Origin: Acidimicrobiales bacterium
GTDB lineage: Bacteria > Actinomycetota > Acidimicrobiia > Acidimicrobiales > UBA8592
Direction: 5' to 3'
NCBI GenBank assembly: GCA_022425805.1
Contig: JAKMEQ010000042.1
Coordinates: forward strand, 1 to 37,024
DNA: 37,024 nucleotides
Position numbers and translations under genes: made by a program. This document shows, one piece after another, positions 2,248-6,453 of the stretch (position 1 is its first letter; every line of letters starts with the position of its first letter). The notes below the pieces were generated by a model. The model was not told where the DNA came from. It did not search any database and worked only from the letters and a program-made list of their open reading frames with translations.

Positions 2248-3312
2248 TCATATATAGGTTCCAACTTCGTCAACTAAGTTCCATGCTCTTGCAGTGTTTA
2301 GGTCAATCGTTCTACCGGTAATCGCTAGGTAAACTGTTCTTTGCGCTCCAATGCGTCTTGGGAGACTCACCGTTCCTCCAGAGCCTGGAATGAGTCCCAT
2401 CTGTATCTCTGGTAAAGAGATCTTCAAAGTTTCGTCAGCGATTATTTTATGAGCAAAGGATGGGAGTTCAATTCCAGCTCCTATGCAGTTACCTGTTAAG
2501 TAGACCGTGACTCGATCATTTAATTTATGGATCCACGAAGCAGGGTTACGAGTCATTCGAATCAAATGGGCATCTACCGGATTATCGAACAGGCCAAATT
2601 CGCTCAGATCTCCACCCGAACAGAAAGAGTCGCCTTCACTTCGAAGAACAATATGTTTAAGATCTTTATCGATATCAGCTAGTTGTAACTGTTCTACCAA
2701 TTGGTCCCGCATTTCAGCTGAGAAAGCGTTAGCCCGATTTGGGCGATTTAGGGATAGCTCCAATAACGACCCTTGCCGAAGGCTAAGTACAGTGGGTTCG
2801 GTACCCCTGTGTTGTGGGAGATCTCCACGGTTTGTAAGCCAGGTGTTGAACTCCGGGCCGCTTTGCAGCATAGCGTAAGTTACTGATTCAAGAGCGAGCC
2901 CATTGGAGACATTAAAGAAAGCCCGTTGGCGTAAGAGCTGGACGAGGGTTATAGCAGATTGAGGATTGTTAGTCACCGCTTGAACAATCTCTGATATTCC
3001 CTCTGCAAGGTTAGGAACGCTAACCCCTAAGCCACATGAGGTATCTGGTCCTGACAAGATTACGTCAAACATATCGAGTTCAGGACGAGTCTTGCCAGAA
3101 ATAGGACTCGATACAACACCAACAGTGACTACGTTCAATAACTTTATTCTTTCAAAAAACTCGTTGGCGTCACGAGGAGTAATGTGACCAATATTTTCCG
3201 GTATCTGAATTACTAGAACACGCCGGTTTTCATCAAATATGTTCTCAGCGACAAATGGATTTCGTAAATAATCAAGAGCGATATCAAACTCGAAGGTCTG
3301 AAAATCTTCCAC
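2248..3312 (-). CDS. Enoyl-CoA hydratase/isomerase with degenerate N-terminal crotonase-like domain
   Basis: A 354-aa protein, about 100 aa longer than an ordinary crotonase. Residues from about 175 to the end form a recognisable crotonase domain: LELSLNRPNRANAFS, the CoA/oxyanion loop FCSGGDLSEFG, GNCIGAGIELP, and the LPEIQMGLIPGSGGTVSLPRRIG block. Residues 1-170 resemble a second, decayed crotonase, ending in a helix like the usual crotonase tail (ALESVTYAMLQSGPEF) but lacking the SGGD loop. The start is GTG, one base after the TAA of the acyl-CoA synthetase (TAACGTG), so the two are probably translationally coupled. It is last in a three-gene minus-strand operon. Hydratase versus isomerase activity is not decided by the visible residues. 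Confidence 0.88.
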   Translation of the reverse strand: MEDFQTFEFDIALDYLRNPFVAENIFDENRRVLVIQIPENIGHITPRDANEFFERIKLLNVVTVGVVSSPISGKTRPELDMFDVILSGPDTSCGLGVSVPNLAEGISEIVQAVTNNPQSAITLVQLLRQRAFFNVSNGLALESVTYAMLQSGPEFNTWLTNRGDLPQHRGTEPTVLSLRQGSLLELSLNRPNRANAFSAEMRDQLVEQLQLADIDKDLKHIVLRSEGDSFCSGGDLSEFGLFDNPVDAHLIRMTRNPASWIHKLNDRVTVYLTGNCIGAGIELPSFAHKIIADETLKISLPEIQMGLIPGSGGTVSLPRRIGAQRTVYLAITGRTIDLNTARAWNLVDEVGTYI

Positions 3313-3313
3313 G

Positions 3314-4831
3314 TTAATCCTTGTCTAAGGAGGAGCTACTTAGATTATCTCGAAGAACCCGACGGAGAAGTTTACCGGTTTCGTTATAAGGGAGTTCATC
3401 CACGATTGCAACACGATCTGGGGTTCGAGATGATCTCAAACGACCTCTAACAAACTCTTGAATCTCTAACATGTCTAGTTTCGCTTTACTAGAGGGGACT
3501 ACAACGGCAACAACGATCTCTCCCCAGTCGGAATCAGGTATTCCCACTACTGCTACATCTTTAATCTGGGGGTGCAGCAAAATAACTTCTTCAATTTCAC
3601 CTGGGGAAATATTTTCTCCACCTCGGATAATGACGTCATCCATGCGACCTTCAACGTACAGATATCCGTCTGGGTCCAAGAACCCCCCATCATTAGTCGG
3701 GAACCACCCTTCATCTGTAACTCGTGTTCTATGCTCCAAGTATTCTCCGGAGACCTGTTCGCCCCGTACCCATATTTCACCAGTAGATCCACTTTCTAAA
3801 ATTTTACCCTCCTCATCTCGAATCGATACTTCAATATTGGGTAATGGCTGCCCAGCAGATGATAGCCTTCGGCGAATAATCTTATCCTTGCTTTCTAAAG
3901 CACTGCGGTGATCGTCTGGTCCCAGAACAGAAATTGTTGAACTAGTTTCTGTGAGGCCATACGCATTAACAAAGTTAGTTTGAGGAAGGAATCGAAGGGC
4001 TTTCTCGATGACTGGTCGCGGCATTCTCCCACCGCCGTATGATAAGAAACGCAGGGAGTTGAGGTCTACCCCCGAGTGTTTTTCTAACTCTTCTACAATT
4101 CGCGAGAGCATCGTTGGGACTACCATTGCGTGCGTGATCTGTTCTTCGATTACTAAGTCAATCCACTGTCTTGCATCAAAATTAGGGAGTTGTACTATTC
4201 TTCTTCCGGCATAGACGGAACTACATAAAGCAGCCATTCCCGCTATATGGTACGGAGGAACGGAAACAAGCGTCGCTTCTTCTTCGCCCGCTCCCATGAA
4301 CTCAACAGAGCCCAAAATATATGACACTAGGTGGGAATGCCTTAGTATCGCAGCCTTTGGTGCACCGGTAGTCCCTGACGTGAATAAGAGAATAGCGATC
4401 TGTTCTGGGTCCATTTCCCAATCAGGATCTGGAACATCGCCACATTGATACGTGGACATAAATTCGGTCCGGCTAACACATTTGAATCCAGCAATATTCT
4501 CAACGCCACTTCTTGTTATCTCATTTACTATGGCTGTAGCGGGCGAGATCTCACCTGCCAAAGCCTGTATCTCCTCTTCGGTCAGCCTGTAATTTAACGG
4601 AACGAACGGTAAACCTGCCCATGCTGATCCGAAAAGCGCCACCGGTAGGGCGACGCTTGAGGTATCAATGAGTGAAACTCTTTCAGAGATCCCATCTCGA
4701 AAGAACTTTGCTGCCCGTCCAGAGTTTTCGAAAAGGTCCCTATAGGAAACACCCGAACCATCTCGGCTTCCGATCGCTATGCGGTCCCCAAATGCATTAG
4801 CGGACATTTCTAGCAACATCACGAGATTCAT
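3314..4831 (-). CDS. Acyl-CoA synthetase (ANL superfamily AMP-dependent ligase)
   Basis: Class I adenylate-forming enzyme of 505 aa, activating a carboxylic acid to its CoA thioester through an acyl-AMP. The P-loop-like motif is LLFTSGTTGAPKAAILRHS, the A5 motif is NAYGLTETS, the hinge region is NDGGFLDPDGYLYVEGRMDD followed by VIIRGGENISPGEIE, and the catalytic Lys lies in NETGKLLRR near the C-terminus. All core motifs are intact. The gene lies 15 bases after the 102-aa gene and one base before the crotonase gene, so these three form an operon. Substrate unknown; the neighbours point to a CoA-activated degradation route. Confidence 0.93.
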   Translation of the reverse strand: MNLVMLLEMSANAFGDRIAIGSRDGSGVSYRDLFENSGRAAKFFRDGISERVSLIDTSSVALPVALFGSAWAGLPFVPLNYRLTEEEIQALAGEISPATAIVNEITRSGVENIAGFKCVSRTEFMSTYQCGDVPDPDWEMDPEQIAILLFTSGTTGAPKAAILRHSHLVSYILGSVEFMGAGEEEATLVSVPPYHIAGMAALCSSVYAGRRIVQLPNFDARQWIDLVIEEQITHAMVVPTMLSRIVEELEKHSGVDLNSLRFLSYGGGRMPRPVIEKALRFLPQTNFVNAYGLTETSSTISVLGPDDHRSALESKDKIIRRRLSSAGQPLPNIEVSIRDEEGKILESGSTGEIWVRGEQVSGEYLEHRTRVTDEGWFPTNDGGFLDPDGYLYVEGRMDDVIIRGGENISPGEIEEVILLHPQIKDVAVVGIPDSDWGEIVVAVVVPSSKAKLDMLEIQEFVRGRLRSSRTPDRVAIVDELPYNETGKLLRRVLRDNLSSSSLDKD

Positions 4832-4846: not shown

Positions 4847-5155
4847 TTAATCCGAAGCGGGAAGAGGTTTGCTTTCTTTTATTGTTAATAAAGAGTCGCC
4901 TAGACTGAGAGAGCCGGCACCTGGTTTTGTACAAAGCAGCTCAAGCGTCTCATCAGAGCTGACATACCGTTTCCCCATCAGCGAACCGCCATCTGCTTCT
5001 TCTAACGGAGCGCCATTCCCCATGTTGGGACTTGAGGGATCGGACATCGTAACTCCTCCACACCTTACGTCGATCTCTCCATCTGGAGCTTTCACAGCTA
5101 TTACTTCGGTGCTACAGACGGTGCTTTTAAGACGACTTCCAGCTCGTATTTCCAT
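4847..5155 (-). CDS. Small conserved-looking protein (102 aa), first gene of the acyl-CoA synthetase operon
   Basis: I do not recognise a named domain. The protein has 102 aa, three Cys (STVCSTEV, VRCGGVTM, LELLCTKPG), a well-formed block GKRYVSSDETLELLCTKPG, and ends in LPASD. The layout suggests a small beta-rich fold, possibly a carrier or accessory protein; that is inference. I have an impression that similar small proteins sit beside acyl-CoA ligase genes in other Actinobacteria, but this was not checked. The start is well supported by GAGGAAAG about 7 bases upstream of the ATG. There is no signal peptide or membrane segment. It is divergent from the CoA-transferase gene across 86 bases. 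Confidence 0.8.
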   Translation of the reverse strand: MEIRAGSRLKSTVCSTEVIAVKAPDGEIDVRCGGVTMSDPSSPNMGNGAPLEEADGGSLMGKRYVSSDETLELLCTKPGAGSLSLGDSLLTIKESKPLPASD

Positions 5156-5241: not shown

Positions 5242-6453
5242 ATGAAAAGCTCAACGTTAAACGATCCCTTTCTTGTTGCAAAAAATCATTTACTAGAACT
5301 TACACGCAGGTTCCCTCCGGAGACAGTTCCACCTCAAGTAATTGAGAACATGTCGTCATATCAGCTTGATTGGCCTGTTTGGCCAACTCCAGCCTTATCT
5401 GACCTTGTTGGCCCGCCAAACGTAGTTTTAAAGAGGTTGGATCTCCGTTGGCTCCACCGTTTTCAAATGACGGTCAGCCTACTGGGATGGCTGTCCTCAC
5501 AGTTAGGAGGTCCAAATGGTGGGCCAAGTGCGCTTTCCCTGTTGGTAGAAAGGGCGCCCCTTCTCGGGCTTCGAGGGTGGGGTGCGACATCTGCTGGAGG
5601 GTCATGCAAGATTCTTGCTTCTGCAGATAGATCAATAGCGGTCAATCTCCCCAGGGCAGAAGATCAAGCATCTGTGCCAGCATGGCTTAACTCTCACGTT
5701 ATGGGCGATAATTGGGATGCGATCGCAGCGGAAGTTGCTCTTCAAGGGTCGAAAGAACTTGTCCATCGAGGAGAACTTCTAGGAATACCAGTTACGTCGG
5801 TGGGGGAGGCTGAGCCCATTGAAGACTATTCGGATAGATCTGGAGGAAACACCAGATTCGTTGGCCTTCCTAAGGTAGTAGACCTATCCAGTATGTGGGC
5901 CGGCCCTTTGTGTGGATGGTATCTTGCTCGTTCCGGGGCGGATGTTACAAAAATTGAATCGAGTACGCGACCGGATGGGACACGAAAAGGATCTATAGAT
6001 TTCTACCGTCGCTTAAATAGTGGAAAGAATATAGTCACTCTTAACTTCGAAAACTCTGAGAATGTAAGCCAGCTTCGGAGTCTCATTAGGGCATCAGACA
6101 TAATTATTGAAGGGTCACGCCCTCGAGCTCTGATGCATCTTGGTATCGATGCCAACGAAGAAGTGGAAAGAGGGGCTATATGGATTTCGATTACAGGTCA
6201 TGGTAGGGCCGAGGCACCGAACCGAGTTGGGTTCGGGGATGACGCAGCAGCGTCGGCAAATCTTCTAGCTAAAGTAGATGACTCGCTTTGGTTTATCGGC
6301 GATGCTATCGCTGACCCAATAACTGGCGCAACAGCAGCAACTTTAGCTCTAGGGAATTGGCTAGCACATTCTGCTGTTCTCCTTGATGTTGGCCTATCAC
6401 CCACCGCTGCTCTTCACTCGCAAGGAGCTCTATCGTTCGGAACAGTTTTTTAA
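5242..6453 (+). CDS. CaiB/BaiF family (class III) CoA-transferase with apparently swapped halves
   Basis: A 403-aa protein. Residues from about 209 onward match the start of a class III CoA-transferase: PKVVDLSSMWAGPLCGWYLA, SGADVTKIES, NSGKNIVTLNF, the SRPRALMHLGI block and the ISITGHGR block. They then continue through GFGDDAAAS, where the catalytic Asp is expected, and GDAIADPITGATAATLALG. Residues 1-205 look instead like the part that normally follows, including a GGSCKILASADRSIAVNLPR segment and a LLGIPVTSVGE segment. The order is therefore C-half then N-half, like a permuted enzyme or the middle of a tandem fusion. The ATG has GAGG almost touching it, so the start is somewhat uncertain. 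Role: CoA transfer between carboxylic acids, substrate unknown. Confidence 0.85.
   Translation: MKSSTLNDPFLVAKNHLLELTRRFPPETVPPQVIENMSSYQLDWPVWPTPALSDLVGPPNVVLKRLDLRWLHRFQMTVSLLGWLSSQLGGPNGGPSALSLLVERAPLLGLRGWGATSAGGSCKILASADRSIAVNLPRAEDQASVPAWLNSHVMGDNWDAIAAEVALQGSKELVHRGELLGIPVTSVGEAEPIEDYSDRSGGNTRFVGLPKVVDLSSMWAGPLCGWYLARSGADVTKIESSTRPDGTRKGSIDFYRRLNSGKNIVTLNFENSENVSQLRSLIRASDIIIEGSRPRALMHLGIDANEEVERGAIWISITGHGRAEAPNRVGFGDDAAASANLLAKVDDSLWFIGDAIADPITGATAATLALGNWLAHSAVLLDVGLSPTAALHSQGALSFGTVF

Follow-up and report, generated by a model that had tools for sequence, protein, structure and literature searches.

Enzymes of the class III CoA-transferase family are known to form interlocked rings. 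A protein encoded in an actinobacterial draft genome raises the question of what becomes of such an enzyme when the parts of its chain are arranged in the reverse order. The gene for this protein, denoted here CaiBp, lies on contig JAKMEQ010000042.1 of an Acidimicrobiales bacterium (GCA_022425805.1), in the stretch of 37,024 nucleotides that was analysed here and is referred to below as the window. The original prediction, made from the sequence alone, described a CaiB/BaiF enzyme with swapped halves, either a circular permutation or what was left of a tandem fusion severed halfway, and pointed out that, for an interlocked dimer, such a chain poses a real question about the fold. The features discussed below are collected in Table 1.

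Table 1. Positions of CaiBp, its partner crotonase ECHp, their segments and the adjacent genes in the window.
Feature	Position	Strand	Evidence or remark
CaiBp, order-swapped class III CoA-transferase, 403 aa	5242..6453	+	ATG start
CaiBp residues 1-96, helical N-terminal region	5242..5529	+	model secondary structure; no family match
CaiBp residues 111-191, small (lid) domain (canonical CaiB ~227-326), ahead of the catalytic domain	5572..5814	+	hhalign; VIA-align
CaiBp residues 206-403, large (Rossmann) domain (canonical CaiB ~4-224)	5857..6450	+	Pfam, VIA-align, hhalign
CaiBp Asp358 (ADPITG), equivalent of the catalytic Asp	6313..6315	+	structure-pair alignment; invariant in alignment A1
ECHp, partner crotonase, 354 aa	2248..3312	-	Pfam ECH_1 (PF00378)
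ECHp residues 97-157, crotonase C-terminal-type segment (canonical 187-248), before the N-domain	2842..3024	-	profile A4; hhalign
ECHp residues 180-350, crotonase N-domain	2263..2775	-	Pfam
ECHp Glu282	2467-2469	-	invariant in 63/63 family members
ECHp Glu302	2407-2409	-	invariant in 63/63 family members
Acyl-CoA ligase (AMP-binding)	3314..4831	-	Pfam; neighbourhoods
102-aa protein	4847..5155	-	genome co-occurrence

The open frame of CaiBp spans 404 amino acids from stop to stop, with a single open codon upstream of the ATG, so that no ordinary N-terminal half is hidden in the frame. The Pfam family CoA_transf_3 (PF02515) matches only residues 211-365, which correspond to profile positions 5-171 of 366 (E 6.5e-24; 85.2 bits against a cut-off of 23.3); the signature of the class III large domain is thus present, in a single stretch rather than in the two copies per chain that are typical of two-domain type III enzymes. 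As originally predicted, the typical N-terminal CaiB motifs start only at about residue 209 and are located at 212-223, 231-240 (SGADVTKIES), 292-302 (SRPRALMHLGI) and 315-322 (ISITGHGR). The AlphaFold2 single-chain model of CaiBp has a mean pLDDT of 88.9 and a pTM of 0.92, and its residues 206-403 match solved large domains with a VIA-align Z of up to 18.1 (4ed9). The catalytic aspartate of the class is retained: Asp358 lines up with Asp175 of Rv3272, the position at which the structures of the wild type (5yit) and the D175A mutant (5yiy) differ.

In the first half, residues 1-209 alone gave no Pfam family at E ≤ 10, no NCBIfam family and no phmmer match. When profiles were compared directly, residues 111-188 aligned to canonical CaiB 227-321 with an hhalign score of 43.2, the maximum among 100 column-shuffled targets being 21.1; the canonical profile in this comparison comprised 38 domains, and a smaller one, built from 10 CaiB proteins of the same genome, matched the N-terminal half at the right place with a score of only 18. 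Because the fold search with the full-length model recovers the large domain only, residues 1-205 were modelled separately (pLDDT 80.2, pTM 0.55). Residues 117-191 of this model superimpose on the small domain of 4ed9 (233-326) with a Z of 10.0 and an rmsd of 2.7 over 75 positions, the 46 best entries all belong to the class III CoA-transferase family, and the next, unrelated entry has a Z of 5.5; Foldseek gave a weak result for the same model (best E 0.017). Profile and fold together place the small domain of the class III superfamily in CaiBp, and in the predicted structures it precedes the large domain (117-191 before 206-403), so that the class order of large domain, small domain and C-terminal segment of the large domain is replaced by small (111-191) and then large (206-403). 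Of the first 205 residues, the resemblance to the usual C-terminal half is shown for 111-191 in the window protein itself; residues 1-96 are helical and match no family here, though in relatives the N-terminus, which is shorter, aligns from canonical 146 on. In this Acidimicrobiia branch, the N-terminal region is longer than in mycobacteria (alignment A3, 56 rows).

The same domain order turned up in dozens of genomes and on plasmids. Altogether, 196 loci were confirmed as relatives of CaiBp, with the order kept in the best ones (80 of 196). Among these best 80, four relatives from Acidimicrobiia match CaiBp at 53-58% over the full length, and the others, mostly from Mycobacteriales, at 38-46% over approximately residues 97-394. 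Alignment A1 (65 sequences, i.e. 64 of the 80 loci and the window; close copies were left out by eye here and in A2 to A4) contains invariant residues in the first half (e.g. R104, G119, R138, D141, W158) as well as in the second (e.g. W219-G225, D333, D334, D358). Collectively, these observations confirm that CaiBp is a genuine enzyme of wide conservation, with the small domain placed ahead of the catalytic one. Two loci deserve separate mention: a CaiBp member close to the mycobacterial ones (L021) lies on a contig that is labelled Acidobacteria and is possibly misbinned, and a 516-aa open frame in which only CoA_transf_3 profile positions 5-202 are matched (G399:C45:17308-17862) is perhaps another truncated or rearranged member.

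Single-domain class III enzymes (Rv3272, CaiB, formyl-CoA transferase) share with CaiBp the folds of the large domain (Z 13.7-18.1) and the small domain (Z 6.8-10.0) and the catalytic Asp, but not the domain order; furthermore, the window protein lacks the canonical C-terminal segment (the last ~75 residues). Benzylsuccinate CoA-transferase BbsEF (9fn0, 9fol; the title of the structure entry names a D178-CoA adduct), which is among the fold matches of both halves of CaiBp, is a solved two-subunit example of the family; unlike CaiBp, it consists of two full-length chains. The two-domain type III CoA-transferases contain PF02515 twice, in about 800 amino acids compared with about 400 in CaiBp, which has one large and one small domain and is devoid of a copy-1 large domain and a copy-2 small domain. 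The conserved Asp of PtmU4 and its two-domain homologues is reported to belong to the C-terminal domain, and D430 mutants of PtmU4 are described as losing activity 125-400-fold (PMC6006322); CaiBp resembles these proteins in carrying the Asp in the C-terminal unit.

Full tandem CaiB-CaiB proteins, the kind of protein from which a remnant would be derived, were indeed found, and 20 of these, together with 68 single large domains, formed the comparison set for the origin of CaiBp. One link came from the small-domain profile A2 (39 sequences and the window), which gave 22 matches in the phylum, with CaiBp in 20 of the 396 genomes: the two weakest (E about 1.6e-4) are frames of 783 and 866 aa, i.e. 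two-domain CaiB-CaiB proteins, and fall within the copy-1 small domain. For the catalytic half, HMM scores alone do not separate single-domain proteins (mean 68.4) from copy 2 (67.7); only trees do. In a quick tree of 119 rows, the 11 CaiBp rows form one clade (99), and its sister (88) is a group of 13 rows that includes 11 from copy 2. The careful tree was confined to 69 of the 119 rows, namely CaiBp, the copy-2 clade, the copy-1 domains of the same proteins and, from the remainder, the 34 rows scoring best to CaiBp, with the rows of seven long-branch names dropped; here, the catalytic half of CaiBp is again related to copy 2, as sister to the copy-2 clade (97/77, the SH-aLRT value of the branch being only 77). 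The origin of CaiBp from two-domain CaiB-CaiB proteins is therefore supported, as is the part of the original prediction that invoked a tandem fusion. The other two of the 13 sister rows are single ORFs, L223 (423 aa) and L224 (477 aa, at a contig edge); L223 may be the split-off second subunit of a two-domain protein.

Which copy provided the small domain is less clear-cut. With the small-domain HMM, the copy-1 domains of two sister-clade proteins (L123 and L122) rank first among 108 segments, and copy 1 scores above the single-domain proteins (p=5.8e-4); the unpaired comparison of copy 1 with copy 2 is not significant (p=0.097), and in the paired one, copy 1 scores higher in 9 of the 11 sister-clade proteins and in 12 of all 20. 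As expected, the large domain is more conserved in copy 2 than in copy 1 in all 55 pairs compared, but, contrary to the simplest prediction, the small domain is more conserved in copy 1 in only 21 of 55. On balance, the data point weakly to copy 1 rather than copy 2. The catalytic Asp itself is present in 11/11 CaiBp rows, 20/20 copies 2, 63/68 single-domain rows and 3/20 copies 1; in the sister clade (L123, L122, L219-L222 and L249-L253), copy 1 carries Glu instead in 10 of 11 two-domain proteins.

The class III active site is described as lying at the interface where the large domain of a subunit meets its partner's small domain (PMC9196870; PMC3720670). Given this pairing and the live Asp in copy 2, CaiBp appears to keep the two pieces of a single live site. 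Under the scenario that follows, a two-domain ancestor would have been stripped of its copy-1 large domain and its copy-2 small domain, and the remainder would consist of the copy-1 small domain followed by the copy-2 large domain; the live site of the two-domain protein would be made of large domain 2 and small domain 1, and CaiBp appears to retain exactly these. The small domain would then dock on the large domain of its own chain in the position of the partner's, the chain would no longer interlock and would be a monomer or a plain dimer, and Asp358 would be used covalently for CoA transfer within a catabolic module. We consider it fairly likely that CaiBp is such a trimmed two-domain transferase, with one live site, no interlocking and Asp358-dependent CoA transfer in this module. 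CaiBp would probably be a minimised, non-interlocked enzyme, and the loss of interlocking is the likely answer to the question of the dimer raised by the original prediction. The same derivation is also compatible with a domain-swapped homodimer, where each large domain would be capped by the small domain of the other chain, yielding two sites without interlocking. Pairing of large and small domains in trans is the rule of the family, but given the confident single-chain model (pTM 0.92), which is not decisive, this assembly appears unlikely.

If a single-domain CaiB had been circularly permuted in the true sense, with new termini after the Rossmann domain generated via duplication and trimming, the small domain would likewise come first and the Rossmann domain second. 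In a circular permutant, all canonical segments are expected once and in cyclic order, but the canonical C-terminal segment is missing between the two domains of CaiBp, being absent from the window protein and C-terminal in relatives: the C-terminal tail of the mycobacterial members aligns to the canonical C-terminal motif (318-400; score 18.0 against a maximum of 12.5 in 60 shuffles). Ten deeper relatives have another N-terminus, 5-144, that aligns to canonical 146-323 with a score of 58.5 (maximum of 60 shuffles, 19.6). Of these relatives, 7 (out of 80 loci) were selected through a W..SG..LTG-like pattern and 3 by hand; the motif match to canonical 146 thus stems partly from selection, the remaining alignment being free of this effect; for one of them, Pfam reports CoA_transf_3 profile positions 137-178 (E 0.003, below the cut-off). 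Since their N-terminus starts from canonical 146 and the second half covers canonical ~4-212, the region 146-211 is represented twice. The duplicated region and the C-terminal motif that stays C-terminal are what one expects of tandem copies after trimming rather than of a clean cyclic permutation, and the grouping of the catalytic half with copy 2 points the same way. The strict form of the permutation claim is accordingly not supported, and an origin of this kind is improbable.

The genes around CaiBp bear on its function. Of the 396 genomes, exactly the 20 that encode CaiBp, and none other, encode ECHp at E ≤ 4e-16. The 102-aa protein, which has no Pfam match and which the acyl-CoA ligase usually adjoins, is encoded in each of the 20 except G298 (19 genomes, E ≤ 4e-13), with one weak match elsewhere among the 396. 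An amidohydrolase (E ≤ 1e-40) is present in 17 genomes, all among the 20; it is missing from G000, G188 and G263 and was not found in the window's own genome, which is 74% complete. The naive chance of the co-occurrence of CaiBp and ECHp, 4e-34, overstates the case because 11 of the 20 genomes belong to one family (f38); within families f2, f4 and f5, presence is patchy, and both genes follow this patchiness. The CaiBp query also matches 93 plasmid records, of which 11 cover at least 80% of the query. In all 12 loci examined among the best of these, some of them near-identical to each other, CaiBp, ECHp and the amidohydrolase are encoded side by side or nearly so (10 from Rhodococcus, one each from Streptomyces and Sphingobium), with the annotations, where given, ‘CoA transferase', ‘enoyl-CoA hydratase/isomerase family protein' and ‘amidohydrolase family protein'. 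The module, which would comprise CaiBp, ECHp, the acyl-CoA ligase, the amidohydrolase and the 102-aa protein, is read as a CoA-dependent catabolic pathway. Its presence on the plasmid of Sphingobium, an alphaproteobacterium, suggests transfer across phyla. As for the surroundings, dioxygenase and acyl-CoA dehydrogenase genes flank the Sphingobium module, a mycofactocin gene cluster lies beside the one from Streptomyces, and a mycofactocin-coupled reductase and a P450 are encoded near one of those from Rhodococcus (L266).

The perfect co-occurrence with ECHp, together with the loss of the canonical C-terminal segment of the large domain from the window protein, could be taken to indicate that CaiBp is a degenerate, non-catalytic CaiB remnant that is kept to assist ECHp as an accessory subunit or to regulate it. 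However, the catalytic Asp and the large-domain motifs are invariant in the 65 sequences of A1, and the Asp is kept in every one of the 11 tree rows, so that this role, too, is improbable. An assembly artefact, a pseudogene or a chance resemblance, for which one could cite the draft status of the window genome (74% complete), is virtually ruled out by the same architecture in the best-matching loci from many genomes, including finished chromosomes and plasmids, and by the conserved residues in both halves of CaiBp.

ECHp itself appears to be unusual. Its only match to ECH_1, at residues 180-350, covers profile positions 3-173 of 251 (100.6 bits against a cut-off of 27), and this N-domain signature is accompanied by two glutamates of the catalytic type, Glu282 and Glu302, which we take to be the hydratase glutamates. 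The helical C-terminal segment expected after the N-domain is missing there, as the match ends at position 173 of 251 close to the end of ECHp; instead, residues 97-157 fit canonical 187-248, in register with the stop of the N-domain at 189. Outside its own family, profile A4 of this segment (34 of 63 family members) gave five weak matches across the 396 genomes, and three of these fall on the C-terminal segment of an ordinary crotonase (E 4.8e-4 to 7.3e-4). The first hhalign comparisons of the N-terminal part of ECHp with crotonases remained within the shuffles (17.2 vs 18.8; 18.0 vs 18.7). With three more crotonases in the target, which were those found by the same A4 profile and are thus not independent, the score was 20.0 (maximum of 100 shuffles, 18.7), and with a mycobacterial reference, it was 19.2 (15.9 in 60 shuffles); an earlier stretch of the N-terminal part aligns weakly (canonical 98-129 to 126-157; 15.3 vs 12.6 in 60 shuffles). 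From these alignments, ECHp seems to be rearranged in the same sense as CaiBp, with the C-terminal segment first, although the proof is weaker than for CaiBp. It is conceivable, if somewhat doubtful, that these two unrelated oligomeric enzymes were both rebuilt from decayed tandem copies, with the copy-1 lid placed before the copy-2 catalytic domain, as single-site, non-interlocked proteins that are inherited only together.

In the open-licence literature searched, in part through the top of the hit lists only, no description came up of a permuted CaiB or other class III CoA-transferase, of a permuted crotonase or of a two-domain transferase with an amidohydrolase that would match the CaiBp module. 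A chain reduced to the two domains of a single live site would illustrate how interlocking can be escaped, whereby two units fuse, one site dies and the dead half is dropped. With CaiBp, a compact scaffold, it becomes possible to test directly whether building the site takes two chains, as has been assumed. CaiBp also draws attention to a conserved pathway of four or five genes that occurs in actinobacteria, on plasmids and in at least one alphaproteobacterium, and in which the apparent parallel rearrangement of the partner ECHp is the surprising part.
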